A stretch of DNA of 64,000 bases from Rhea pennata. Lineage: Eukaryota; Chordata; Aves; Rheiformes; Rheidae. The stretch is taken from assembly GCF_028389875.1 (NCBI RefSeq), contig NC_084671.1, positions 27,311,083-27,375,082 on the forward strand, written 5' to 3'. A program made the position numbers and the translations under genes. Shown in pieces: positions 9,096 to 64,000 of this stretch. The notes below the pieces were generated by a model. That model was not told where the DNA came from. It saw only the letters and a list, made by a program, of their open reading frames with translations, and searched no databases. The number at the start of each line of letters is the position of its first letter. Position 1 is the stretch's first letter.

Positions 9096-9247
9096 CAGAA
9101 CCACAGAATCAGTAAGGTTGGAAGGGACCTCTCGAGATCGCCTAGTCCAACCCCCCAAAGATTTCCTGGTGCTGGTTCCACTGGGGCTTGGACCCAGGAC
9201 CTTCAGCATGTAAAGCAGATGAGATAACCACTACACTATCCCTCTAC
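9096..9247 (-). mobile_element. tRNA-Val-headed SINE with CR1-like 3' tail
   Basis: On the minus strand the element starts with a tRNA-like head (about 9,246 to 9,173). The head shows a pol III A box (tagtgtagtgg), a TAC anticodon loop (ctttacatg), a B-box-like ggtccaagccc and a 3' end reading gtggaacca. This closely follows tRNA-Val(TAC), except that the 5' acceptor strand no longer pairs and the anticodon stem has a mismatch, so it is not a working tRNA gene. After a short linker comes a tail typical of CR1 3' ends (ggttggactagg, then aggtcccttccaacc) and two degenerate ATTCTG-type octamers ending near 9,096. Such head-plus-CR1-tail elements are known as CR1-mobilised avian SINEs. I saw no target-site duplication by eye. 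Confidence 0.8.
9173..9246 (-). pseudogene. tRNA-Val(TAC)-like sequence, head of the SINE
   Basis: The D-arm, anticodon loop (TAC) and T-arm are recognisable and in the right order. The 5' acceptor bases do not complement the 3' ggaacc, and one anticodon-stem pair is broken. It sits directly upstream of a CR1-like tail. It is therefore best read as the promoter head of a SINE and not as a functional tRNA gene. Confidence 0.75.
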
Positions 9248-43600: not shown

Positions 43601-45843
43601 GGATTTAATATGAAAAAAGGAAGTGCTTTCTCCATCCAGAACTTTGACAAATGCAGAGCTCATTGTCAAGGAATGCTGTGGAAGTAAAAATATAAACAGA
43701 TAACAAGTGTTAAATTTATGGAGGGTAGATCAATCAGTGGCTGTTAAACACTGTAGTGCCGGTTCAGTCTTCAGCTCAGGAAGTCAGATCTGCTGATTGC
43801 TGCAAAGCACTAGGATGTGCCAGGAGAAAGCAGGCACTGTCTGCACACCCTGTTCTCAATTTTCCTGATTATTTCAGGAAAATGGACTGATAAAAGAGGA
43901 ATATGCTTCAGGGAAGATCAGCTGGTGTGAACGTGTGCCAGAGAAGACAGAGTAAGACAGATGAAATTAAAGCTGTGCTTCTTAAACTGAGTTATTCAAA
44001 AGGTGGTAGGTTCCCTTAGCTCCAAAATGTGATGAGTAACCCTACACGTGGCAGTGCTCTTGCCGCCTGCCTTGTGGATAAGTTAGGACTTGGCAGTTGC
44101 AGATGTATACTTATGGCAGGAAGAGGCACTTGGAGAGTTGGAGAGCCTTTCCTATGGACAGGACCTGTTCTGGTCAGTCAAAGACACTTCTGGGAGGACC
44201 ATGCACTTCTGGGAGGACCGTGCCCTTGACACAGTATGGATAAGCAGCTAGACAGCATTGCATGCCCTGTGCAGGTAGGGACACCGGGACTGAGCTGTTC
44301 AGTATCCACTCTGTGTTCAGTGCACTGCTAATGTTGTGAGAGTTTTGACTGTGATTCAAGATGTCTTGAGAGAAAGCTGTCTTTCACCCTTGCTGCACAC
44401 CAGAAACAGCGTTCTTTGTGTTTGAACGGTAGCACTGTGCTGGTTTGCCAACTGATTCTGCATGTGTGCAGCAGTGGGAGACCTTCCCACTGAGAAGCTG
44501 TAACTTCTCCAGCCAGCAGCGGGCTCCTGGGGAGAGGTTCACCCAGGGTTGAGCAGGCACCATGAGTGGGGTCAGTCAAGGCCAGCAAACTCTGGGTGCA
44601 ATAGGCAGGGGGAGCCTAACAGCACACTGGAAATTGCTTTCTGTTTGCAATCAGAGGCACTGTGATACAAGCTGAACCACTCTCCTGGTTTGCAGACCTC
44701 ACCGCTGCATTAGTAGCTGCCAGTCCTACTCAACCTTCAGCTCGGAGAACTTTTCTGTGTCGGATGGAGAGGAGGGGAACACAAGCGACCATTCAAACAG
44801 TCCGGATGAGCTGGCTGCCAAGCTAGAAGACGAGCTGGCAGAGAAGCTGGAGGACATGTTATCTCAGACTCCAGAGATCCCCATTGAAATCTCCACCCAG
44901 TCTGATGGGCTTTCAGACAAAGAGTGCGCTGTGCGGAGAGTCAAGACCCAGATGTCTCTGGGCAAACTTTGTGCAGAGGAGCACAGCAGTGAGGTGAGTT
45001 GTGTGCTTAACAATTCCTGCTTCCTTCTATCTGATGATGACGATAAAGTAATAATAATAAAAAAAAAACCACAAAGAAATCCAAGGGCCAGAAAGCTGGA
45101 ACACTGCCTAGGAGACTGTGTGGTAGATGGACTACAGTGAGGGGACTGCTTAAATACTTGGTCTTTCTCATACTAGGCCAAATGAATAGACAAAATAAGA
45201 CCTAATTTACTGCTCAGGCCGAGTGAGATATTGAGAGGCCAGCAGATCTGCAGTTGCATTAAGGGGGATAAAAAGTAGCAGGTAAAGTAGATAATGAAAT
45301 GGAAGGAATATAAGTATTTTCTTCTCAGACCCATCTGTCAGCCTTGCTGACAGACCTGAAATGATTTTCTTCCTTTTACTACCTTGCCAGCTTTTGGCAG
45401 TGGGGAGGACAAAGGCTTCTGCACCATCTTTTGGTACCTCTGTCTGTTTGTTGATGGTGCAGATTGCTTTCTACCCTAGAAGTGTCCTGTGAAGCATTTC
45501 AGTAACCAAACGCTGCCACAGAAAGCCTGAAGTGGAGTGACCGACTATCATGCTTTCCGCCAGCCCCTCCTCTGGGGGAGGAAAGAGACCTTTGGTAGGA
45601 TGTGTGCTGCTGGCATCTGTGTGCCACTGACCTCATGCCGGTGGTGACCTTTCCCTGTCTCCTGTTACGGACTGGGATAACGTGGTTGATCTGCGGTGCA
45701 GGAAAACTTCTCAGAACATTTCCTTTCCTTTTGCTTTGCAGAACCCAGCGCAGTTTGGAGAATCAGACTGTGACTCTTCCGAGGGGGAGTGTTCTGATGC
45801 CACGGTCAGGACCAATAAGCCCTGCAGCTCTGCTACTTGGTAA
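21534..45843 (+). CDS. MAP3K13: Mitogen-activated protein kinase kinase kinase 13 (leucine zipper-bearing kinase, LZK), 13 coding exons
   Basis: A Ser/Thr kinase of the mixed-lineage/DLK group that phosphorylates MKK4/MKK7 and drives JNK (and p38) signalling in the cytoplasm. It is important in neuronal injury responses. Joining 13 exons gives 955 residues without a break; the human protein has 966. Order: a variable N-terminus; a glycine-rich pre-kinase patch (about 130-160); a kinase domain (about 171-412) with GSGAQG loop (178-183), VAIKK lysine K198, HRD aspartate D282 and DFG 300-302; a double leucine zipper (about 430-504); a basic segment; a His/Gln/Pro-rich region (about 615-651); an acidic [10 protein letters not shown] stretch (about 806-815); the SDGLSD hexapeptide (892-897); and a conserved C-terminus ending SSATW. 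Start chosen at 21,534 by Kozak context and match to the family N-terminus. It converges on TMEM41A. Identity is very secure; MAP3K12 (DLK) is the nearest alternative but has a different C-terminus. Confidence 0.97.
22018..29543 (+). other. MAP3K13: MAP3K13 intron after coding exon 1
   Basis: 7.5 kb, with donor GTAAGC and an AG acceptor at 29,542-29,543. Holds a (TG)n(TA)n repeat at 22,562-22,624 and a C-rich run near 23,676-23,690. No other gene is recognised. Open frames of up to 205 codons (27,945-28,562 minus) show no domain and no conservation that I can recognise. Confidence 0.8.
22562..22624. repeat. (TG)n(TA)n microsatellite
   Basis: About 21 bases of TG repeat running straight into about 42 bases of TA repeat with one interruption, read directly. 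It lies in the MAP3K13 intron 0.54 kb downstream of coding exon 1. Alternating purine-pyrimidine DNA of this kind is prone to Z-DNA and cruciform formation and to length polymorphism. Confidence 0.95.
29544..29727 (+). CDS. MAP3K13: MAP3K13 coding exon 2 (residues 162-223), N-lobe of kinase
   Basis: Acceptor AG 29,542-29,543 and donor GTAGGT at 29,728. Encodes the start of the kinase domain: the glycine-rich loop GSGAQG and the ATP-anchoring lysine in VAIKK (codon 29,651-29,653), then the alphaC region. Ends after two bases of codon 223. Confidence 0.96.
29728..30201 (+). other. MAP3K13: MAP3K13 intron (474 bases)
   Basis: Donor GTAGGT, and acceptor TTTGACAG ending at 30,201. Nothing else is recognised. 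Confidence 0.9.
30202..30393 (+). CDS. MAP3K13: MAP3K13 coding exon 3 (residues 223-287), catalytic loop
   Basis: Encodes the hinge (IIMEYCAHG), the alphaE helix and the catalytic loop HRDLKSPN. The catalytic aspartate codon is at 30,377-30,379. Donor GTGAGT at 30,394. The Asn of the loop is split across the junction with the next exon. Confidence 0.96.
30394..31576 (+). other. MAP3K13: MAP3K13 intron (1.18 kb)
   Basis: Contains a C16-type run near 30,473-30,489 close to the donor. Ends with a TTTCCAG acceptor. No other feature is recognised. Confidence 0.85.
31577..31735 (+). CDS. MAP3K13: MAP3K13 coding exon 4 (residues 287-340), activation segment
   Basis: Encodes VKISDFGTS (magnesium-binding DFG), the activation loop with Ser/Thr residues (SDKSTKMSF) and the APE motif (WMAPEVI). 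Acceptor AG 31,575-31,576 and donor GTGAGT at 31,736. Confidence 0.96.
31736..35255 (+). other. MAP3K13: MAP3K13 intron (3.5 kb)
   Basis: Donor GTGAGT, acceptor ATCAG ending at 35,255. A short A run lies near 33,836. No gene or clear transposon is recognised. Confidence 0.85.
35256..35414 (+). CDS. MAP3K13: MAP3K13 coding exon 5 (residues 340-393), C-lobe
   Basis: Encodes [17 protein letters not shown], the alphaF helix and following C-lobe of the kinase, ending LMRQTW with the Trp split at the junction. Donor GTAAGA at 35,415. Confidence 0.96.
35415..36727 (+). other. MAP3K13: MAP3K13 intron (1.3 kb)
   Basis: Contains a G9-type run at about 35,731-35,739. Ends with a GTTCCAG acceptor. Nothing else is recognised. 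Confidence 0.85.
36728..36836 (+). CDS. MAP3K13: MAP3K13 coding exon 6 (residues 393-429), end of kinase domain
   Basis: Encodes [19 protein letters not shown], the kinase subdomain XI with its conserved Arg, and the linker to the zipper (ETYFKSQ). Donor GTAACT at 36,837. Ends on a complete codon. Confidence 0.95.
36837..37761 (+). other. MAP3K13: MAP3K13 intron (925 bases)
   Basis: Donor GTAACT, acceptor CCCTAG ending at 37,761. Nothing else is recognised. Confidence 0.85.
37762..37871 (+). CDS. MAP3K13: MAP3K13 coding exon 7 (residues 430-466), first leucine zipper
   Basis: Encodes [18 protein letters not shown] and [15 protein letters not shown], a charged helix that forms the first zipper and mediates homodimerisation in this family. 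The donor is the less usual GTTTGT at 37,872. Confidence 0.95.
37872..38846 (+). other. MAP3K13: MAP3K13 intron (975 bases)
   Basis: Donor GTTTGT, good polypyrimidine tract and acceptor TTGCAG ending at 38,846. Nothing else is recognised. Confidence 0.85.
38847..38963 (+). CDS. MAP3K13: MAP3K13 coding exon 8 (residues 466-505), second leucine zipper
   Basis: Encodes [20 protein letters not shown] and the following [17 protein letters not shown] heptad series. The hydrophobic spacing fits a coiled coil. Donor GTATGT at 38,964. Confidence 0.95.
38964..39498 (+). other. MAP3K13: MAP3K13 intron (535 bases)
   Basis: Donor GTATGT, acceptor TTTCAG ending at 39,498. Nothing else is recognised. Confidence 0.85.
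39499..39636 (+). CDS. MAP3K13: MAP3K13 coding exon 9 (residues 505-551)
   Basis: Encodes [20 protein letters not shown], the conserved basic stretch after the zippers, ending with a Lys/Arg-rich [10 protein letters not shown] block. Donor GTAAGA at 39,637. Confidence 0.95.
39637..40619 (+). other. MAP3K13: MAP3K13 intron (983 bases)
   Basis: Contains a short (GT)8-9 repeat at about 40,355-40,372. Ends with a TGTCTCAG acceptor. Nothing else is recognised. Confidence 0.85.
40620..41364 (+). CDS. MAP3K13: MAP3K13 coding exon 10 (residues 551-799), disordered regulatory region
   Basis: The largest coding exon. It carries [20 protein letters not shown] (basic, phosphorylatable), a Pro/His/Gln-rich low-complexity region at 40,810-40,920 with about 11 His in 37 residues, the conserved [20 protein letters not shown] block, then a poorly conserved Cys- and Ser-rich stretch. 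Donor GTAAGG at 41,365. Confidence 0.94.
41365..42615 (+). other. MAP3K13: MAP3K13 intron (1.25 kb)
   Basis: Donor GTAAGG, acceptor GCCAG ending at 42,615. A 149-codon minus-strand open frame at 41,722-42,171 has no recognisable domain. Nothing else is seen. Confidence 0.85.
42616..42686 (+). CDS. MAP3K13: MAP3K13 coding exon 11 (residues 800-823), acidic stretch
   Basis: A 71-base exon encoding [20 protein letters not shown] and RRQR, a conserved acidic block that ends in a basic patch. Donor GTAAAG at 42,687, a weaker match to consensus. Confidence 0.94.
43340..43870 (+). mobile_element. CR1/L3-type LINE 3' end, sense orientation
   Basis: The order of blocks follows the CR1/L3 LINE 3' region closely: tggttgccccagctcaaag, agagtttgaaaaggat, a gagggtgtaatggagatc block, ttaatatgaaaaaaggaagt, gagctcattgtcaagg, and tggagggtagatcaatcag followed by the 3' UTR-like tail. 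The ORF is not intact. Divergence suggests an old insertion. The family was recognised from memory of consensus phrases. Boundaries are approximate and the element may start as early as 43,140. Confidence 0.7.
44185..44222 (+). repeat. 19-base tandem duplication
   Basis: Two adjacent copies of cacttctgggaggaccatg that differ at one base, in an intron of MAP3K13. Seen directly. Confidence 0.9.
44696..44993 (+). CDS. MAP3K13: MAP3K13 coding exon 12 (residues 823-922), Ca2+-responsive hexapeptide
   Basis: Encodes [20 protein letters not shown], an acidic helical segment (two ELA/AEKLED repeats), then SDGLSD (codons 44,901-44,918) and the [12 protein letters not shown] block. SDGLSD is the motif reported to give Ca2+-dependent regulation in C. 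elegans DLK-1 and to be kept in MAP3K13. Donor GTGAGT at 44,994. Confidence 0.95.
44994..45741 (+). other. MAP3K13: MAP3K13 last intron (748 bases)
   Basis: Donor GTGAGT, acceptor TTTGCAG ending at 45,741. Has a small ATA/A-rich tract near 45,047-45,068. Nothing else is recognised. Confidence 0.85.
45742..45843 (+). CDS. MAP3K13: MAP3K13 coding exon 13 (residues 923-955 and stop)
   Basis: Encodes [20 protein letters not shown] and the conserved terminal SSATW, followed by TAA at 45,841-45,843. Acceptor AG 45,740-45,741. Confidence 0.95.
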   Translation, partial: NPAQFGESDCDSSEGECSDATVRTNKPCSSATW

Positions 45844-54198: not shown

Positions 54199-54289
54199 TT
54201 AGCTCTTGTTCTTGCTCTGACACGGGATGGGCTTGAAGGTTGTTTTGGTGTTCTCCGTCAGGACAAGGTCATACCTGCACAGCTGTGGT
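54199..54289 (-). CDS. LIPH: LIPH exon 10, C-terminus and stop
   Basis: Encodes [20 protein letters not shown] and [10 protein letters not shown], then TAA at 54,199-54,201 (minus). Human has [19 protein letters not shown], so identity is clear. The last residues are more polar than in human. Confidence 0.94.
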
Positions 54290-57200
54290 CTGCATAAAAA
54301 GAATGAACCCAGGCCAAAAATGAAAAAATTGCCTTCCGTCTATCATTTTTCCAGTCAAGTCTTCCAACATACTGGAGGTTTGTATAAAATAAGTAATGTT
54401 TTCAGGACATGTGGAAGGCTCCTGAGGTGAGGTGCAGTTCCAGCGTGACAGAGGTCGGGGTGCTTTGGGTGCATCTTTGTTGTGTTCTACATGCAAGGGA
54501 AAGGGAGTGCCGGGAGGAGTTGCAGGAAAAGGGCCTTGCACAGTAGACACGCCTGTTTCTTTCCTTACTGTGAGACTAAGATGAGGGTAGCAGACTTTCA
54601 TGAACTGGAAAGAAGCATATTCTGCAGCTCAGTCCAGTTTTGCTTCCCCCTTCTCAGTCTGTGATATACAATCCTTGTTTTAACACTCACATAAAGCATA
54701 TGCGGGCTGGTGGCCACACGGCTTCCTTGCACACAGAGTCACCCCAAGAGGGCCTGTACTCACTGGGCTCGGGCAAAGATCTGCTCTTTCTGAAGTGCCC
54801 CCAAATCAGGGAAACTTCAGGGTATAACGACATAGCGGGTGGAGGTTAATGAGGTGACTGAAGCCACTGAGGAAATCTCACAAGCAAATGGTGTCGTAGG
54901 TACCACATACATGTTCAGGGCAACCAGTGCTTCAAAGTGTAGTGTACAGGAGCTCTCACATCATGGGAATTTCAGGATTAAATTAATCTCCCAATTTGTC
55001 AGAAGATAGCGGCTGGGATATTAAATGTGTATTAGGGGCTGAATGCCTGCGTTTACCTGAGAGTCACATCTACTTTCAGTCCAGTTTTCAGGCTTGGGTG
55101 CCTTATCTGTAGCTACCCAAAGGGCAGAACTTATTTTCTTGACCAAAGGTTAGAGAGTCAGACCACAATTTTTTTTTCAATACAATAAGGCAACTTCTGT
55201 TTTCAAAGGTGTTCAACTGTGGGATTTGTGTGCATGCACTAAAGGCAGATTTATATAAGGTGCACAAGAATTATTAAGTGTGAAATAAATGTAACTCTTC
55301 TGGACTCCACTAGGTCAGGACTCTAAGAGACGTATTTACTTCTGTGTGGTTTGCAGCTTTAGAAATGGTTTGTTATTCTCTGCTTACCTTTCTGGATTTG
55401 TAATTGACCGTAGCCTCATTTGGAGAATCCTGAGTTTAAACTTTGGGCCAATGATAGACCCGGTGGAAAATGTCAAGGAAATTCTTTCTACGTTTTTGAG
55501 ATCCTGGTCAAATCCAATTAACAAAGAGATTTGGTTGTACTGCTGAAAAGCTGCAGTTTCTCTAAAAGTGAAGGAGACAAGGTAGCACAAATTCACCAAG
55601 ATATTAGAAACAGTGCTAGGGAAGAAGGACTAGATTTAGGATTAGTTTCTGATCTTCAGGAAAGGGATATGGATTAAAGTCCCCTGATGTGAGCCTGCTC
55701 TGCCATTTTTGCAGTCATTCCCAGGGCGGTGCCCAAAGGTCTGATGCTGTTTACTCTGGTCCCAAACTAGAATCCTCACTGCAATTCTGCTTTGAACCCA
55801 AGTGGACTAGACTCTACAGATACCGCACATGGCTGTCTGTGCAGACCGGCGTGCCGAGTCATCTGCAGAGGTTGCAGAGCATGTTGCTGTATGCAAAAAT
55901 CTGGTTTGTAATAACACAGGATGGCTGAGGTAGCTTTACTAATGCAAGAATGTACACTGTGGGTGTTAAAGTCTCTAACTAAATTTCTAGTAGCTCTCTT
56001 GCAAACAACAGATGTGTCTGTGAAACAATGCGGAGTTGACCAGAATTAATGGAGCGTAATCCAGCCTCTCAGCATGGTAAACCAGTACAAGCTTAAAGAC
56101 AGCACAGTCTCACAGGGCTGGGGTTTGACACTGGGCCTTTTCAACAGAATGGCCAGTTCTGCTTTGAGACGTGCACAGATACTGCACCAATCTTGGTGCA
56201 AAAACAGCAGAGCTGCTCACAGGAATGTTGCTATACAACGTGGGCTTTATATGGCCGGTTGTTTGGCCTCTCTAGCTGACTGGAGTTGCAGATTTCCCTT
56301 ATAAATGTGCGGAGTGGAGATAGGATTGGAAGTGGATCCCAGTTACGGCATTCAGAACAGCTGGCCCTGTTTAGGAATTTTAGGAGGTCTGCGGAATTGG
56401 ACAAGTTTGAGCCAGTCAGAGGTAGTTAGAGCACGTGTGTGTAAGCGTGCTGACTGGTGGGCTGTCACACGCTCAGCGGCGTGCGGTGGGCCTGTTGTGA
56501 AACCTCAGAGAGCTGTGCACGTTACTCTGGTGCAAGCACATGTGGCTGACGGCAGTGAGATCATGCTGTTGAAGCTGCCACGCCACACTTGGAAAAACTA
56601 GTTGAGCAGGACTTGTTTGGCTGAAGTGTGTTTAGTCTCTGTTTGCGTGTCTCCGTACAGAGTAGCCATTACTTTGCCCTTCCGAGCAGAATGAGTTGTT
56701 TTGGGTGCTACGTATTCAGGACCGGGTTCATGCCAGCTCTCTGGGGCACCAGAGCTGGAGCTCAGCCTACCTAAGGGCGTGGAGCTGCCCCTACTCCCAG
56801 GAAAGGGGCAAAAGGAGGGAGAAGGGGCGCCTATGGAAGCATAGGACAGCCATACCACTGGCTGAAATTGTTTTCTTAAGTGCTTAAGATGATTAGAAGT
56901 GTGTGAACGGAAGGGCTGGGCTGTCACCTGATGTGCAGTGGAGGAGTCTGTGGAAATCACATATGGCCAGGCAAGCCCTTACTATCAAGTATCAGCAAAG
57001 AAATTTGAGGAGGATATCTTTCCTCTTCCCAGAATCAGTTACGCTAAGTGATTTGCTATCATTTATAGATCACGGACTCAGTAAGACTTACGGATTGACT
57101 TTAGATTCTGCTTTCTTCCCTGTTTCATCAGCTAATGTAATGGCAAAGGTGCCTCTTCTGGTATCTTTGTTCCACGTAGTAATATCCAAGAAGTAGTGAT

Positions 57201-60200
57201 AAACTGCGAGGTGACAGAGAGACAGTGCGCAGTTAGACTCCGTCCCGCTTGCTTTCGGGGCTGGTTGGCACGCAGCGATCACCGACGCACTGCACAAGGG
57301 AGAGGTGTGTGTGTGGTGGGGGAGTGATGAGAGTCAAAGACATGCTCTGGCTGAGCTGAACCAGCTGTGAGCCTGAATCTCTGTACTGCCTGCGAGCACA
57401 AAAGAGCAGCATGTTGTTGTGAAACACAATGTAAGTACTACCTTTTTATGCTTCGCTCATATGTTCTCAACAAATTCCCTAGCTGTGTAAGGAAGATGAG
57501 CCTGTTCTTGCTCATCTCTGTTTAACTAGCACTTTTGCAGCAAAAAGTATGTTTGCAGTTATGGAATATAATGGCAGGCCTGCAGATGGACATAATTCTA
57601 TCCAACAGCCACAGGCTGTATTTCTAAGATGCTGGATATGATGCCAATAGCAACTAACCATCTCTTCTCAGCTGTTGCTGAAGGAGGCAGTACACAAAGA
57701 AAAATCATTTCAGAAATCTTACTTACTACAATATGGCTCTTTGTCCGCTGTATCAAAAAACGTGCCTGTCACTGGATGACTCTGTTGCGTGAAATAGCTT
57801 TTCCACTTATTGGCGTAATAACCTATAGATAACAGCATAAAAACAGAGCAGAAGGTTACTCCACAGTTATATAGGCAATTAAATAACTGAAAATATAAAA
57901 CAGGTGTTTAGGAATACTATATTGCTTTTGAGCTGCAAGGTAATACGCTGGGACGTGCTCCTATGTGCCATAGACTTGCACAAGGGCTTAATTTTATTTG
58001 TGTTACTAAAGCCAACTCTGTGTCCAAATATATCTGGTTACTATTCGTCACTTACTTTAAGATACATCTTTTTTCACCTCTGATATTCCCGGTCAAGAAG
58101 GCTTGCGTGGCCCAGAATGAAAATAATCTCCTGAGCTTTAAAAGCTAATTTCCAGAAGTATCAGAGTTTTGGCAACATTAACATTTTAGATATGACAGTT
58201 GGAAGCTGTGCTGTCACACCCAGGCTGGGACACCTCTGTGGGTGAGTCTCAAAAAAGCAAAATACCCTTTGTTTGGCCCCTCTCTGCCATTCCTTTTATA
58301 GTCAAAGAGGGGGATGTGGTGCTCAAAATTTCTTAGAAAAGATTATATTTTAGCAGGAACATGCCCTTATCCCTCAAAATCTGCAGCTGATGGCCTTCAA
58401 TTAATTGCTTCTGTGACTTCAGTCTAAAGATATCAAGTCTTGTTTTAGCATTTCTAGTTCTGGTTCCTTTACATGTGGATTTCTGCTCTAGATTATGATG
58501 TGAGGTAACCATACAAAGAGAGGGGAACCTCTCAGGCCTCTTTTGCCTGTTGCGGAGGCTTGTACCTCTCAAAGCCAAGGAGAGATCATCCCAAAAAAAG
58601 ACAGTAGAAATAATTTATATGTTAATATAATATATGTTATATAATTTATATTTTTTGCAAAGCACAGGGTTATGTTGGTCCTTTAGCAAAACATTTGTCA
58701 CAGTCACATGGATGGATTAAAAGTTACAGCAATGGTGGGTAGCTACATCAGACACATGTATTCACATTCCCTGGATTCACAATGCTCTTTGTATCTTCCT
58801 TACCTAGGATGGGGCATGGCAAGGGCTGAAAAGTTTTGCAGCTGGTACATTTGCCATTCCTGTAATTTCTGTATGAGTCACACGGGTATGCAGTAATATT
58901 GCAGCTCATTTTCAGGGATGATATGAACAAGAAAACAGACCTCTGGTGGTCACATTTAAAATACTGCAATCCTTAATCACATGTAGAGAAGAAATATTTC
59001 ATTAGCAATCCTTGTGCTTCAGAAGAGCGTTAATTTACTAGCAAAAGACACACAGACACTGACCAGTGTGAATACAGCAGATTGAGATGGGAAGCACTGG
59101 ACTGTGGCAGAGCAGTAAATGGGCACCAGCCTCTTCCTTCGAGTGCACTCAGCTCTACCAATGTCTGCTTTAGTCTTCTACTAGTCTACTTTATTTTTTA
59201 AAAGCATACTTGTTACTACTGTTACTGCGGTTCCTGAGGATCCAGCTATAGATCCTACTCCATCTCAGATGCTGTCTTCTTCTCTCTGAGCCCAGGCATG
59301 ACAGTTGGATATTGCATATCTTTGCACAAGACCTTGCCATTTCTGTTTAAAAAAACCCTTTAGAAAGACATACCCGATAAAATGAGTTGCTCCATGAGCA
59401 GCAAAATAAGCCAAGCCTCATTTCCTATGCATTTTTGTTCCAGGGTTGGTTTGCTATGTAGATTTCCCTTGTGCCTGATAAGGGTTGAGTTCACATTATT
59501 GCCTTTCCTTCATAAGGTCTCGTCTTCACCCAGCTTTCACAAAAGCAGTTCTGCTGCTGAGCTAGAAAGCAGAAAAGCTTTCTTGTGTTCAGGACTAGGG
59601 CTCTGCCTACTGGTTGTACTGTCTGTCGCTGCCAAGAAAGGCTCTTTGGATTCAGTATAGTGGTCTAATCTACATGTGTGTGTCATAAGTCTGTTTTCTG
59701 AACAAGTGCTTGCTGTTGCTAATCTTCGGGGTTTTGTATATGTTCTACATAATTTTTTTAAAAAAGTCACAAAATGAGGGTACAAATTCACCTGATGAGT
59801 TTTTGCATGCAAAATTCATCTCACTGTGTTTGTGAGAGAGAGCAGAAAAGACCACTCCGACTCATATCTCTGCCTAGTGCACGTCATCTCAATTCCTCTG
59901 GTGTCAGCATGCCACATCGATGCTGGGAAAAGAATGCTTTCATGGCTTCCCAGAAAAATTGTTTCTGTGTATTTTCTAGGAGTAATGATGTTTCTTTGGC
60001 CTTCTCTTCCTTTTTCTGACTGGAAATATTTTGCCAGTATTTTTGCAATTCAGAGCTGAATTAATTACCAGAAAATATTGTTTGTGGACAGCCTGGCTGG
60101 TCAGTCCCGCCATTGGGGTAGAAGTCTATGTGGCCTAGTGCTTCTCTGTAACCTAGTCCTGGTAAAACAAAATATGGAGGGAGGGGATTATTAAACCATA

Positions 60201-63154
60201 AAATACAGAAAAAAGAAACATAAGAAACTAACTGAAAAAAAAAAACAACAGTTATTTAGCTCTAGGATGTCTGCCTGTGCAGGAATTTTAATGTCATTGA
60301 TGTATTTATGCAGCAAACCAAACAGCTGTGACCCAACTATGTCATTTTAGCAACGGTACTGAATGCCCAAAATAAGTCTGTGCATGTGGCACGGCACAGA
60401 ATTAGCTTTTTTGCTGTAGCTGCCTGCAGGAGGGGAAAAGGGATGTGAAATAGTGGGCGTTTCTGTGCTGCCGAAGTCCAAGTTCTTGGAGGGTTTGGGA
60501 GAAGAAAGAAGGCTGTGAGGTGGGAAAGCTGAGTCCTCCAGGGAGGATGCCCATGGGAGCAGAGCTGGGGGATTGTGTCGCATCGCCAGCCTGGCTGTCG
60601 GATTTGAAGACATGCCGTGCAGCACTTGGGAAAGGCAAGAGGTAAAGGAAGTGCCAGACTCACCCAGAAGGTGGTTTAAGCCACAGCAGGTTTAAGCCAC
60701 AACTTCTTGGGCCACGGGACCTCCAGGGCCTCCCTACCCAGGGCAATTCCCTTCATTTCTAGGGCAGCAAAACAAGCTGCACTCAGCATGGTCCATCCCT
60801 GTCCAGCATGGTCCATCCCTGATGGCTGGGAGGGTTGGTACCTCCCCACTGGACCCTGATGGCCACATTCAGCTGTTAGGAGGAATAGCTGTAAAACAGC
60901 ATGTTTTGAAATGCAAATACAGCAGCAGCACTGGAGGGAGTCCTGACCACAGAGTGAACAGTACAGGCCTGCCGAGCCCCTCACAGCCCCACTGCATCCT
61001 GCACCTGGAAGCAGGCTGCAGTCCTCCTGGGCCAAAGGAGCAAAAATTCCCCCAGCACAGCTGCCTCCTGGAGCCTCTGCTCTCCTATGCTCCGCAGCAG
61101 TCTCTAGGTTTCTTTGTAATGATAAAGAAGCAAAATGTTGCTTACCATCGGTGTCCGAATGAATGACATCAACAAACTGTGCGTCTGTGGGGTCTAACCT
61201 CTCACTAGGCAGCGTGCCTCTGTACAAGGGACCTGCTGGGTCAAGGCCTGCAATGCAGAACCATGTGCGTGGCTTAACATCAGTACTGGGCAGCTCACAC
61301 CACTCACTGTGCCCGAAGCAAAGGGACTGACTGGAGGAGGGGCTTACCGGTGATTCTTCCAAGTTTACCTTCATACATCTGTCCCACAAAGCCAGAGATG
61401 TGTGCTCCCAGGCTGACTCCTATCATGTGAAGGGAGTCAAGTGATGCTCCCTCAATCTGAGATTTAAAAATACTCATGGTCGTAGATGCTGGGAACACTG
61501 AAGACATAAAAATGTCAAGAAGAGGAAATGTAAATGCATCTCCCTACTTTTCCCATGTTCTTCAGTGGTATGTGCTCCGCTCCTTATAAATATCCCCCCT
61601 TTCATCCCTTTGCTCATCCTACAGTGCAACAATCACTCATGTTGAGGCCCTTGGGAGAGCTGAGGAGAACAGTTCAGGCAATGGTTGTGTTTTCTTAGGG
61701 TAATGACAACATGTGTGGACAGGAATAAGTAAATATTCGTGAACACCATGAATCTAACTCCATTTGCTGGCATGTGGTTTCCACAAGGCATTAGCAGAAC
61801 CAGCGAGTCTAATGGTCCCAGAGCCTTAGTTATGCGTGTGCGTGACAACAACTACTTAAGTTAGGGGCCAGTTATCTGCCTCAACAAGAAGTTTTCCTGT
61901 ACTTATGAGATGGCTTTTTACCTTCCACAAACATTAAGGGGAATTAATATAATTTTTGAGCAAGTTACCAACTTAGAGAAATAAATAGAACTGAAAAAAA
62001 AATGTTTAGTGAAGGTTCAAGTAAACATTATAGCCCAGTGTATTAAATAAATGGAAGTCAAACAACCACAAATATATTTAAGATCCTGGTCCTGCATCTA
62101 AATGTAAGCATGATCATGGGGAAAAAAAATGCCCTACGTTCCAAATGTAATCACTTTTTGTACCAGGAGAGCCACTGCATAGGTGTAGAAATTCAGCAGC
62201 ATTTTTTTTTTTCACGGTGCAGCTCTAACTTAGTCCACTAAGATGTGTACTCATAATCCCTCTTCTGCCCAGTTTAGGGGTGTCTAGCTGAAATAGTTTA
62301 CTCCTTTTGCAAACTAAACTGCAGTGTAGTCTCAGGGTGAGCTCTTAGCAGTGACTATGCTGAACATGTAAAAGCCCACTAACAACTAGTATCTCTGCCT
62401 GGAGGTGCCCGGCTTTGGAATCTAATGCCATAGCTGACTGCATCTGTGCAATGATGGCTAATGGATTGTAGCTGATCTGCATAAGCTGACTTTAGGACAT
62501 CCGGAACATGGAAATCAAGTGTCTGTGCAAATGAAAATAAATCCTTGGAGTTTCATATCCAGAAATGTAGAGACTTAGAATGTAAATTGAATATTGCAAC
62601 AAAATACTGACATACCAAGACTGAGGATAGAATTTTGCATTGCAGTATAGTTGCACTTACGAGAATGAATGTATCCCTTTTCAGGAGTGTCTTTTCCCAG
62701 ACATCCTGCTGTTTTTAAACACTTCCTTGTGGCCTTTGCATATTGTGCTTTAATGACTATGTAATATTATGAATCTCTAACTTACCAACATTTCATCAAT
62801 AAGTTTCTTCAAAATCTCAGCAACTTTCTTGCAGTTTCTGGAAGCATTGCTATAAATGAGAGTTGTTGCCCCATGGTTCCAGTCCACAAGGATGATGTTC
62901 ATGTCTTCTACAGAAAGCAGGAGATATACTAAGTCAGGAATCCACAGCGGGGGAGAGCCTGTGAGTCGATATCCATGGATAATGAAGGTAGTTTTCTTGG
63001 TTATATCTAGATACTTGGAGGCTGTTGAATTGAGGCTGTTCGGCACAGTTTGGGTTCTGCCTGGTGTAGAGCATTAGCTTCACTTCGAGGTCTGTCCCTA
63101 TTAAAGCGCTGCCCAGGCTGAGGCTTGTGAATGCAGGGCATGCCTTCTCAGGGT
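54199..63154 (-). CDS. LIPH: Lipase member H (mPA-PLA1alpha), exons 2-10, with a one-base frame break in exon 2
   Basis: Secreted, membrane-associated phospholipase A1 that cleaves phosphatidic acid to 2-acyl lysophosphatidic acid. In mammals the product acts on LPAR6 in hair follicles. Nine exons were joined; they match the human protein (451 residues) from just after the signal peptide to the end. Visible: the oxyanion block FIIHGY, Ser nucleophile in IGVSLGAH (codon 61,412-61,414), Asp in GLDPAGP (61,240-61,242), His in KCDHQRS (58,946-58,948), Cys-rich surface loop, and C-terminal domain with YNQISLL.GFDQDL. The signal-peptide exon was not found. Exon 2 has one base too many near 63,041-63,043: reading straight through stops at 62,934. 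All eight other exons keep phase and splice sites, so this is either a sequence/assembly error, a polymorphism or a very recent loss. LIPI or pancreatic lipase are less likely because of the exon-by-exon match. Confidence 0.92.
54290..55387 (-). other. LIPH: LIPH intron between exons 9 and 10 (1.1 kb)
   Basis: Donor GTAAGC, acceptor TTTATGCAG. Nothing else is recognised. Confidence 0.85.
55388..55561 (-). CDS. LIPH: LIPH exon 9, C-terminal domain
   Basis: Encodes [40 protein letters not shown] and [10 protein letters not shown], strongly matching the human C-terminal domain. Donor GTAAGC at 55,386-55,387 (minus). Confidence 0.95.
55562..57091 (-). other. LIPH: LIPH intron between exons 8 and 9 (1.5 kb)
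   Basis: Donor GTAAGT, acceptor CTTTTAG. Nothing else is recognised. Confidence 0.85.
57092..57203 (-). CDS. LIPH: LIPH exon 8, start of C-terminal domain
   Basis: Encodes [20 protein letters not shown] and [16 protein letters not shown], the first strands of the C-terminal lipase domain. Acceptor TCGCAG and donor GTAAGT at 57,090-57,091 (minus). Confidence 0.94.
57204..57726 (-). other. LIPH: LIPH intron between exons 7 and 8 (523 bases)
   Basis: Donor GTAAGT, acceptor CTCGCAG. Nothing else is recognised. Confidence 0.85.
57727..57822 (-). CDS. LIPH: LIPH exon 7
   Basis: A 96-base exon that reads [20 protein letters not shown] and [12 protein letters not shown] in the correct phase, matching the human GYYADNWK...FFDTAEESPFC block. 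Donor GTAAGT at 57,725-57,726 (minus). It is too short to stand out as an open frame. Confidence 0.92.
57823..58803 (-). other. LIPH: LIPH intron between exons 6 and 7 (981 bases)
   Basis: Donor GTAAGG, acceptor ATCTATAG. An AT-rich patch lies near 58,610-58,650. Nothing else is recognised. Confidence 0.85.
58804..58971 (-). CDS. LIPH: LIPH exon 6, catalytic His and Cys-rich loop
   Basis: Encodes [20 protein letters not shown] then [20 protein letters not shown]. The catalytic His codon is at 58,946-58,948. Donor GTAAGG at 58,802-58,803 (minus). Confidence 0.95.
58972..60068 (-). other. LIPH: LIPH intron between exons 5 and 6 (1.1 kb)
   Basis: Donor GTAATT, acceptor GATTAAG with a weak polypyrimidine tract. 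Nothing else is recognised. Confidence 0.85.
60069..60158 (-). CDS. LIPH: LIPH exon 5
   Basis: A 90-base exon whose translation continues in phase from exon 4: [18 protein letters not shown] then [22 protein letters not shown] is a strong family signature. Acceptor TTTACCAG and donor GTAATT at 60,067-60,068 (minus). Confidence 0.94.
60159..61145 (-). other. LIPH: LIPH intron between exons 4 and 5 (987 bases)
   Basis: Donor GTAAGC, acceptor TTACCAG. Contains a 20-base tandem duplication at 60,784-60,823 and an A run near 60,234. No other feature is recognised. Confidence 0.85.
60784..60823 (+). repeat. 20-base tandem duplication
   Basis: Two adjacent near-identical copies of cagcatggtccatccctgtc inside a LIPH intron. 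Seen directly. Confidence 0.85.
61146..61247 (-). CDS. LIPH: LIPH exon 4, catalytic Asp exon
   Basis: Encodes [20 protein letters not shown] and [14 protein letters not shown]. The catalytic Asp codon is at 61,240-61,242. Acceptor TTGCAG, donor GTAAGC at 61,144-61,145 (minus). The gap to exon 3 is only 100 bases. Confidence 0.95.
61348..61456 (-). CDS. LIPH: LIPH exon 3, nucleophile exon
   Basis: Encodes [20 protein letters not shown] and [17 protein letters not shown]. The GxSxG serine codon is at 61,412-61,414. Acceptor ATCTCAG and donor GTAAGC at 61,346-61,347 (minus). Phase is compatible with both neighbours. Confidence 0.95.
61457..62785 (-). other. LIPH: LIPH intron between exons 2 and 3 (1.3 kb)
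   Basis: Donor GTAAGT, acceptor AAATCTCAG. Nothing else is recognised. Confidence 0.85.
62786..63154 (-). CDS. LIPH: LIPH exon 2, frame broken by one extra base
   Basis: Acceptor TTTACAG (just after 63,154) and donor GTAAGT at 62,784-62,785 (minus). Length 369, where the phases of both neighbours require 3n+2, so it is one base too long. The first frame reads [20 protein letters not shown] and continues to [12 protein letters not shown]. The second frame resumes with [44 protein letters not shown] and KKLIDEML. Dropping one base at 63,041-63,043 restores alignment to the human protein with no gap. Confidence 0.9.
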
Positions 63155-64000
63155 CTGTAAAGAGCACAGCATGGCAATCCTGAGGTTAGCGCCAAGAAAT
63201 GCCTTGGACTTTTCTACCTGCCAGCTCTGCACAGGCTGAAGAACTTGCATTGTGAGCTCCCTGACCTGGTGCTGCTCTTTTCCTCTCCATCACGTTCATG
63301 ATTAGAGTTACCCTGAAAATTAGGGTTTTCTGCTGTGCTGGGACAAGGCTTTTCATTGCAAACTAGCACCTTCTGTCAAAGGTTGCATCTCCCTACTCCT
63401 TTAGCTGCCTTTTGCCTTTATCCCATGTAACCCCTTTGAACAGTACTTTTCTGGGCCAGACTGCAAGTGTACCTTCTGGGAAGAGCATTCCCTGAAGCAA
63501 CACAGTCCTACTTCCTCCAGCAGCTGGGAGGGAGCATGGGCTTTCTCCAAAAATCTCATTAGTGTATGTACCACCTCTATTGGATGGGCGATGAGCCCAG
63601 CAGGTCTGCAGCTGAACCTGGTCCCATGAATCCCCAGAGTGATTGTGCGGCTGCTCACTTGACTCAACTCTCCATTCACCATAACAACATTTCTTACAGA
63701 AAGTTCCCTGGGAAGGGAGTAGGCTCTGGCACTTGGGCTTTATTCTCAGCTTTCCATAACTGACTCCCAACACCTGCCAGAGTACCTTGGTGTTCACTTG
63801 TATGTTGTTAAATATATAACGTACTTCACTCCCAGAAGGGGCTGTCTTGAGATTTAACAGCCATGTTGATGTCATGCTATCTCAGGTTGGGAAGCTGAAC
63901 TCCATCCAGAGGAAACATTTTGAGATCTCTTTTGAGGAGGGGCATTAGTGGCTGGCGTGGTTGCTGTGTCGGTTTGAGAGCACACCCAGATGCTCTGAAC
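63155..64000 (-). other. LIPH: LIPH intron 1 (partial); signal-peptide exon not found
   Basis: Exon 2 enters at phase 1, so an upstream exon carrying the signal peptide must exist. I see no ATG plus hydrophobic run plus phase-1 donor here, so it probably lies beyond the right edge. A 160-codon minus-strand open frame at 63,393-63,875 has no domain that I recognise. Confidence 0.6.

Follow-up and report, generated by a model that had tools for sequence, protein, structure and literature searches.

In chicken, the LIPH gene of chromosome 9 (listed as 'LIPH2', XP_422687.3) is given in the tables of Holmes and Cox (2012, PMC3482443) as 10 coding exons over 8,866 bases, encoding 459 amino acids with glycosylation sites 59NST, 75NVT, 120NAS, 265NIT and 389NIT. 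The entry is a database prediction and was compared here through these published tables, which also give, on chicken chromosome 1, a LIPH duplicate ('LIPH1') linked to the origin of LIPI. The 75NVT entry breaks the eight-residue spacing of most other rows of the table and was therefore given no weight. In the same publication, LIPH is defined by disulfide cysteines and a short lid of 12 residues, human LIPH is placed near MAP3K13 and SENP2, and the N-glycosylation site 66NVT of the human protein is listed as conserved in all 18 of the vertebrate LIPH proteins. A single-base break of this gene has been described in the rex rabbit, in which the deletion 1362delA lies in exon 9, near the C-terminus, and is backed by segregation, being homozygous in 60 of 60 rex animals and absent from 60 of 60 non-rex animals (Diribarne et al. 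2011, PMC3084274). For bird genes, frameshift errors caused by an unpolished stretch have been reported in hummingbird TLK1 (PMC8081667), and false indels are described in older bird assemblies, for example in PCDH17 of an older zebra finch assembly (PMC9516821). Among the matches listed for CC-licensed PMC papers, no title concerned a bird LIPH frameshift.

The window analyzed here is a stretch of 64,000 nucleotides from Rhea pennata (positions 27311083 to 27375082 of contig 9 of the assembly), in whose coordinates features are given unless stated otherwise. LIPH exons 2 to 10 were found on its minus strand, running from 63154 down to 54199, by similarity to human LIPH and exon-wise modelling, the human protein serving as the basis of both the exon search and the alignment.

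62786..63154, minus strand: LIPH exon 2, 369 bases (3n, where the phases require 3n+2), contains the frame break
63032..63044, minus strand: interval of the one-base LIPH frame change, from similarity, exon model and trial omissions
62934..62936, minus strand: first in-frame stop on the straight reading of exon 2
63018-63026 and 63032-63040, plus strand: the 9-mer GAGGCTGTT, present twice and nowhere else in the window on either strand
61348..61456, minus strand: LIPH exon 3, active-site Ser (GVSLG)
61146..61247, minus strand: LIPH exon 4, active-site Asp (LDPAGP)
60069..60158, minus strand: LIPH exon 5, from the match to human LIPH and the exon model
58804..58971, minus strand: LIPH exon 6, active-site His (CDHQRS)
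57727..57822, minus strand: LIPH exon 7, from the match to human LIPH and the exon model
57092..57203, minus strand: LIPH exon 8, from the match to human LIPH and the exon model
55388..55561, minus strand: LIPH exon 9, from the match to human LIPH and the exon model
54199..54289, minus strand: LIPH exon 10, ends in the stop codon

The splice sites of exons 2 to 10 within the window comprise nine AG acceptors and eight GT donors. A predicted exon 1 lies 3.7 kb outside the window, at position 27378818 of contig 9 (equivalent to 67736 in window numbering), and reads MLRLCVMLIYLSCGVKT (MLRLC...), followed by one base and the donor GTAGGA. This was the sole candidate from a scan whose rules had been changed after an earlier failure: the first scan had yielded a single candidate, dropped as unlike LIPH, and tblastn with the human start had returned nothing usable. 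A CpG-rich stretch is found approximately 5-7 kb further on. With nine exons in the window and one predicted exon 1, the gene would have ten coding exons, span about 13.5 kb between candidate exon 1 and the stop codon, and encode 453 residues once the frame break is bridged.

Using human proteins as probes, exons of MAP3K13 were located at 21534-45840 on the plus strand and exons of TMEM41A at 53143-51472 on the minus strand, so that LIPH lies near MAP3K13 in the window, while a SENP2 probe found no match in the 40 kb beyond it. A wrong gene was rejected, these two neighbors, the exon count and the residue register described below all pointing to LIPH. A 401-base query covering 62900-63300 had a single match in the whole assembly, and none of the pattern stretches picked up as possible relatives of exon 2, 55 in genome contigs and 13 in viral contigs, could be confirmed. 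The locus is best described as an ordinary bird LIPH, predicted to encode membrane phosphatidic-acid-selective phospholipase A1 and well preserved in other respects. Three minor features were also recorded in the window: an exact tandem repeat of 1.9 copies of a 20-base unit (60784-60821) between LIPH exons 4 and 5, an imperfect 24-base tandem pair (79% matches, 44808-44855) in the ELAxKLED stretch of a MAP3K13 coding exon, and a weak tRNA covariance match at 9173-9241 on the minus strand (32.2 bits against a gathering threshold of 29), perhaps a tRNA-derived repeat.

The boundaries of exon 2 are canonical (acceptor ACAG/AC, donor TTG/GTAAGT) and enclose 369 bases. Because exon 3 starts in phase 0 and exon 2 owes two bases to its first codon, the length of exon 2 must be 3n+2; the mismatch pointed out in the preliminary description was thus confirmed by the exon model and the flanking phases. 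Human LIPH covers exon 2 as two overlapping pieces, one in frame -3 (E 1.1e-10) and the other in frame -1 (E 7e-31). Since both halves match LIPH, the gene model is not wrong, and mis-set exon boundaries were discarded on the strength of the canonical splice sites together with these matches in different frames. In a trial of 24 places, 18 distinct one-base omissions (not scored) reopened the frame of exon 2. The omissions that preserve the cysteine equivalent to human Cys53 as well as Asn-Ser-Thr at residue 59 delimit the interval 63032-63044, inside which falls the frame jump previously placed near 63,041-63,043; the exact extra base cannot be pinned down from the sequence. On a straight reading, the protein ends at 62936-62934, in exon 2 of 10 and ahead of the Ser, Asp and His of the triad, as had been proposed, and the resulting piece of 72 residues, far shorter than the bridged protein, has no Pfam match at E <=10. 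By the usual rule, a stop so early in a ten-exon gene would make the transcript a target of nonsense-mediated decay.

Apart from this one-base interruption of its reading frame, the gene was found to be intact as far as checked. With one base fewer, the joined exons 2-10 are open for 435 residues, and the bridged protein extended by candidate exon 1 is identical to human LIPH in 288 of 451 alignment columns. The alignment holds two gap columns, neither of them at the break, in keeping with the earlier claim that no gap remains there after correction. The protein bridged over the break matches the Pfam Lipase family (PF00151, 6e-83), its Ser, Asp and His align with columns 154, 178 and 248 of human LIPH, cysteines are kept at all 13 of the 13 cysteine positions of that protein, and the lid cysteines, counted on the human alignment, enclose 12 residues, as in the published definition of the short LIPH lid. 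Among proteins of solved structure, 15 distinct sequences match it at E <=0.001, namely pancreatic lipases and proteins related to these, lipoprotein lipase and a phospholipase A1 from a hornet. The AG/GT sites, the open joined reading and the human alignment agree with the preliminary description in that the other eight exons, the splice sites and the triad are intact, and its proviso that any decay, if real, is very recent holds for a single lesion in an otherwise intact gene. The equivalent of the widely retained 66NVT site reads Asp-Ile-Thr here (63005-63007, minus strand, about 25-40 bases past the break), a replacement that could hint at relaxed constraint.

We then compared the bridged protein, whose glycosylation sites fall at residues 59, 120, 265 and 451, with chicken chromosome-9 LIPH as tabulated. 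Both genes have ten coding exons, exon 1 being predicted here, and share the sites at 59, 120 and 265; three of the five chicken site numbers therefore match exactly, and all three lie at or past the break. As such numbers count the residues ahead of the break, correcting one base puts the protein in register with chicken, and as residue numbers equal those of chicken once the break is bridged, the chicken gene as annotated is without the break. The two differ in size (459 amino acids and 8,866 bases in chicken, 453 residues after bridging and about 13.5 kb here), in the tabulated chicken sites 75NVT and 389NIT, which have no counterpart here, in an additional 451NKS here, and in the one base too many carried by exon 2 of the present gene.

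We consider the extra base to be most probably a consensus error, introduced by sequencing or polishing into an otherwise ordinary bird LIPH, with a probability of about 0.6; the weights given to this and the other explanations are a matter of judgement and not a computed posterior. The preliminary description had itself named an assembly error as a result that would overturn it. The frame break, its consequence and, if it is real, its recency were upheld, whereas support did not extend to the suggestion that a feathered animal has lost LIPH, base rates favoring a consensus error. Under this explanation, reads of the sequenced animal would carry one base fewer than the consensus. In any one animal, a given gene carries a true frameshift allele less often than a technical one, as is known from human exomes. 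The single lesion, the intactness of the remaining gene and the residue register in common with chicken as published all suggest, at the level of sequence, an error of this kind, which takes the lead because published frameshift-error rates per gene are appreciable. According to a preprint, the share of BUSCO genes with such errors is 2.2% for VGP genomes and 4.9% for others (PMC13320880). The 2021 VGP paper states that, in assemblies meeting its goals, less than 3% of genes were annotated with base errors that shift the frame, and that before polishing the commonest error was the short indel arising in consensus calling (PMC8081667). Like the reported false frameshifts of hummingbird TLK1 and zebra finch PCDH17, the LIPH break is a short frame-breaking change in a bird gene, but those errors were recognized by their authors with further data, whereas the LIPH break is known from the assembly alone.

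Several characters count against an error, namely the lack of a long homopolymer, a direct repeat at the break, the uniqueness of the break among the coding bases checked and the contiguity of the assembly; the Asp-Ile-Thr at an otherwise conserved glycosylation site could do so too. Runs in the break interval reach two bases at most, and HiFi errors typically occur in long homopolymers. The two copies of GAGGCTGTT form an exact direct repeat, 14 bases apart, of which the latter copy reaches into the break interval. Slippage or templated mutation can truly occur in such a setting, which weakly favors a real allele. When base duplications were simulated in these exons (20,000 trials), 0.2% newly created a repeat of at least 9 bases within 20 bases. 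The extra base completes the 9-mer repeat for some of its placements only, the repeat otherwise pre-existing or staying incomplete, and this dependence on placement weakens the argument. A single break was encountered in 4,777 coding bases from 25 exons (9 of LIPH, 12 of MAP3K13 and 4 of TMEM41A), a count too small for an error rate, which leaves out LIPH exon 1, the first TMEM41A exon and an unjoined open MAP3K13 exon at about 42634 (junction 9); a generally noisy window was rejected on this basis. At large scale the assembly is contiguous, 180 contigs making up 1.27 Gb and contig 9 measuring 30.8 Mb, and it includes a contig of 16,749 bases (contig 180) which we take to be mitochondrial from six long open frames in its first 10 kb.

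The strongest alternative, possible albeit clearly less probable than a consensus error, is a true and very recent LIPH frameshift allele that is heterozygous, segregating or newly fixed in the lineage. Its premature stop would probably lead to nonsense-mediated decay and to the absence of the enzyme, and production of LPA by the LIPH route would be lost in homozygotes. The position of the break outside a long homopolymer, the 9-base repeat and the lack of a second break in the coding bases checked are all in its favor, as is the failure to find a plausible splice rescue within exon 2, and loss of LIPH is viable, as illustrated in published accounts by the rex rabbit (PMC3084274) and by human woolly hair/hypotrichosis. 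Nine exons without another lesion and the appreciable technical frameshift rates weigh against it. As in the rex rabbit, a single-base frameshift would affect an otherwise unchanged ten-exon gene; the rabbit break is situated in exon 9 and the present one early in exon 2, and the bird case is known from one assembly alone. Somewhat more tentatively still, slippage or local templating between the two 9-base repeats may have made a young null allele in this bird, that is a natural knock-out.

It is very unlikely that the extra base is real yet tolerated, being bypassed by a cryptic splice or a translational frameshift. Inside exon 2, 16 GT..AG pairs spaced by at least 30 nt would reopen the frame, but the mildest of these internal 'introns' is shorter, at 40 nt, than vertebrate splicing allows, and the next mildest delete conserved stretches. 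Stop-free in-frame acceptors inside exon 2 would cost at least 31 residues, and skipping of exon 2 breaks the frame too, by arithmetic with candidate exon 1. No plausible frame-restoring splice, the other outcome that the preliminary description had offered against itself, was found among the acceptors and internal GT..AG pairs of exon 2 or by its skipping. Least probable of all is an older pseudogene, in which LIPH would have been lost in the lineage with the break as its first visible scar: the frame break itself and the Asp-Ile-Thr replacement are compatible with it, but a decayed copy would show several independent lesions, and here there is one in nine exons, the other exons, splice sites, triad and cysteines being kept over 451 aligned columns.

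If the extra base is a consensus error, it adds to the false losses by which surveys of lost genes would be misled, and the locus deserves a flag. If it is real, it would represent a known kind of single-base LIPH break in a new class of animal, and a natural loss of an enzyme whose absence leads to woolly hair in people and whose alteration leads to the rex coat in rabbits. Such an allele could show whether the LIPH-LPA-LPA6 route of the hair follicle also matters for feathers.
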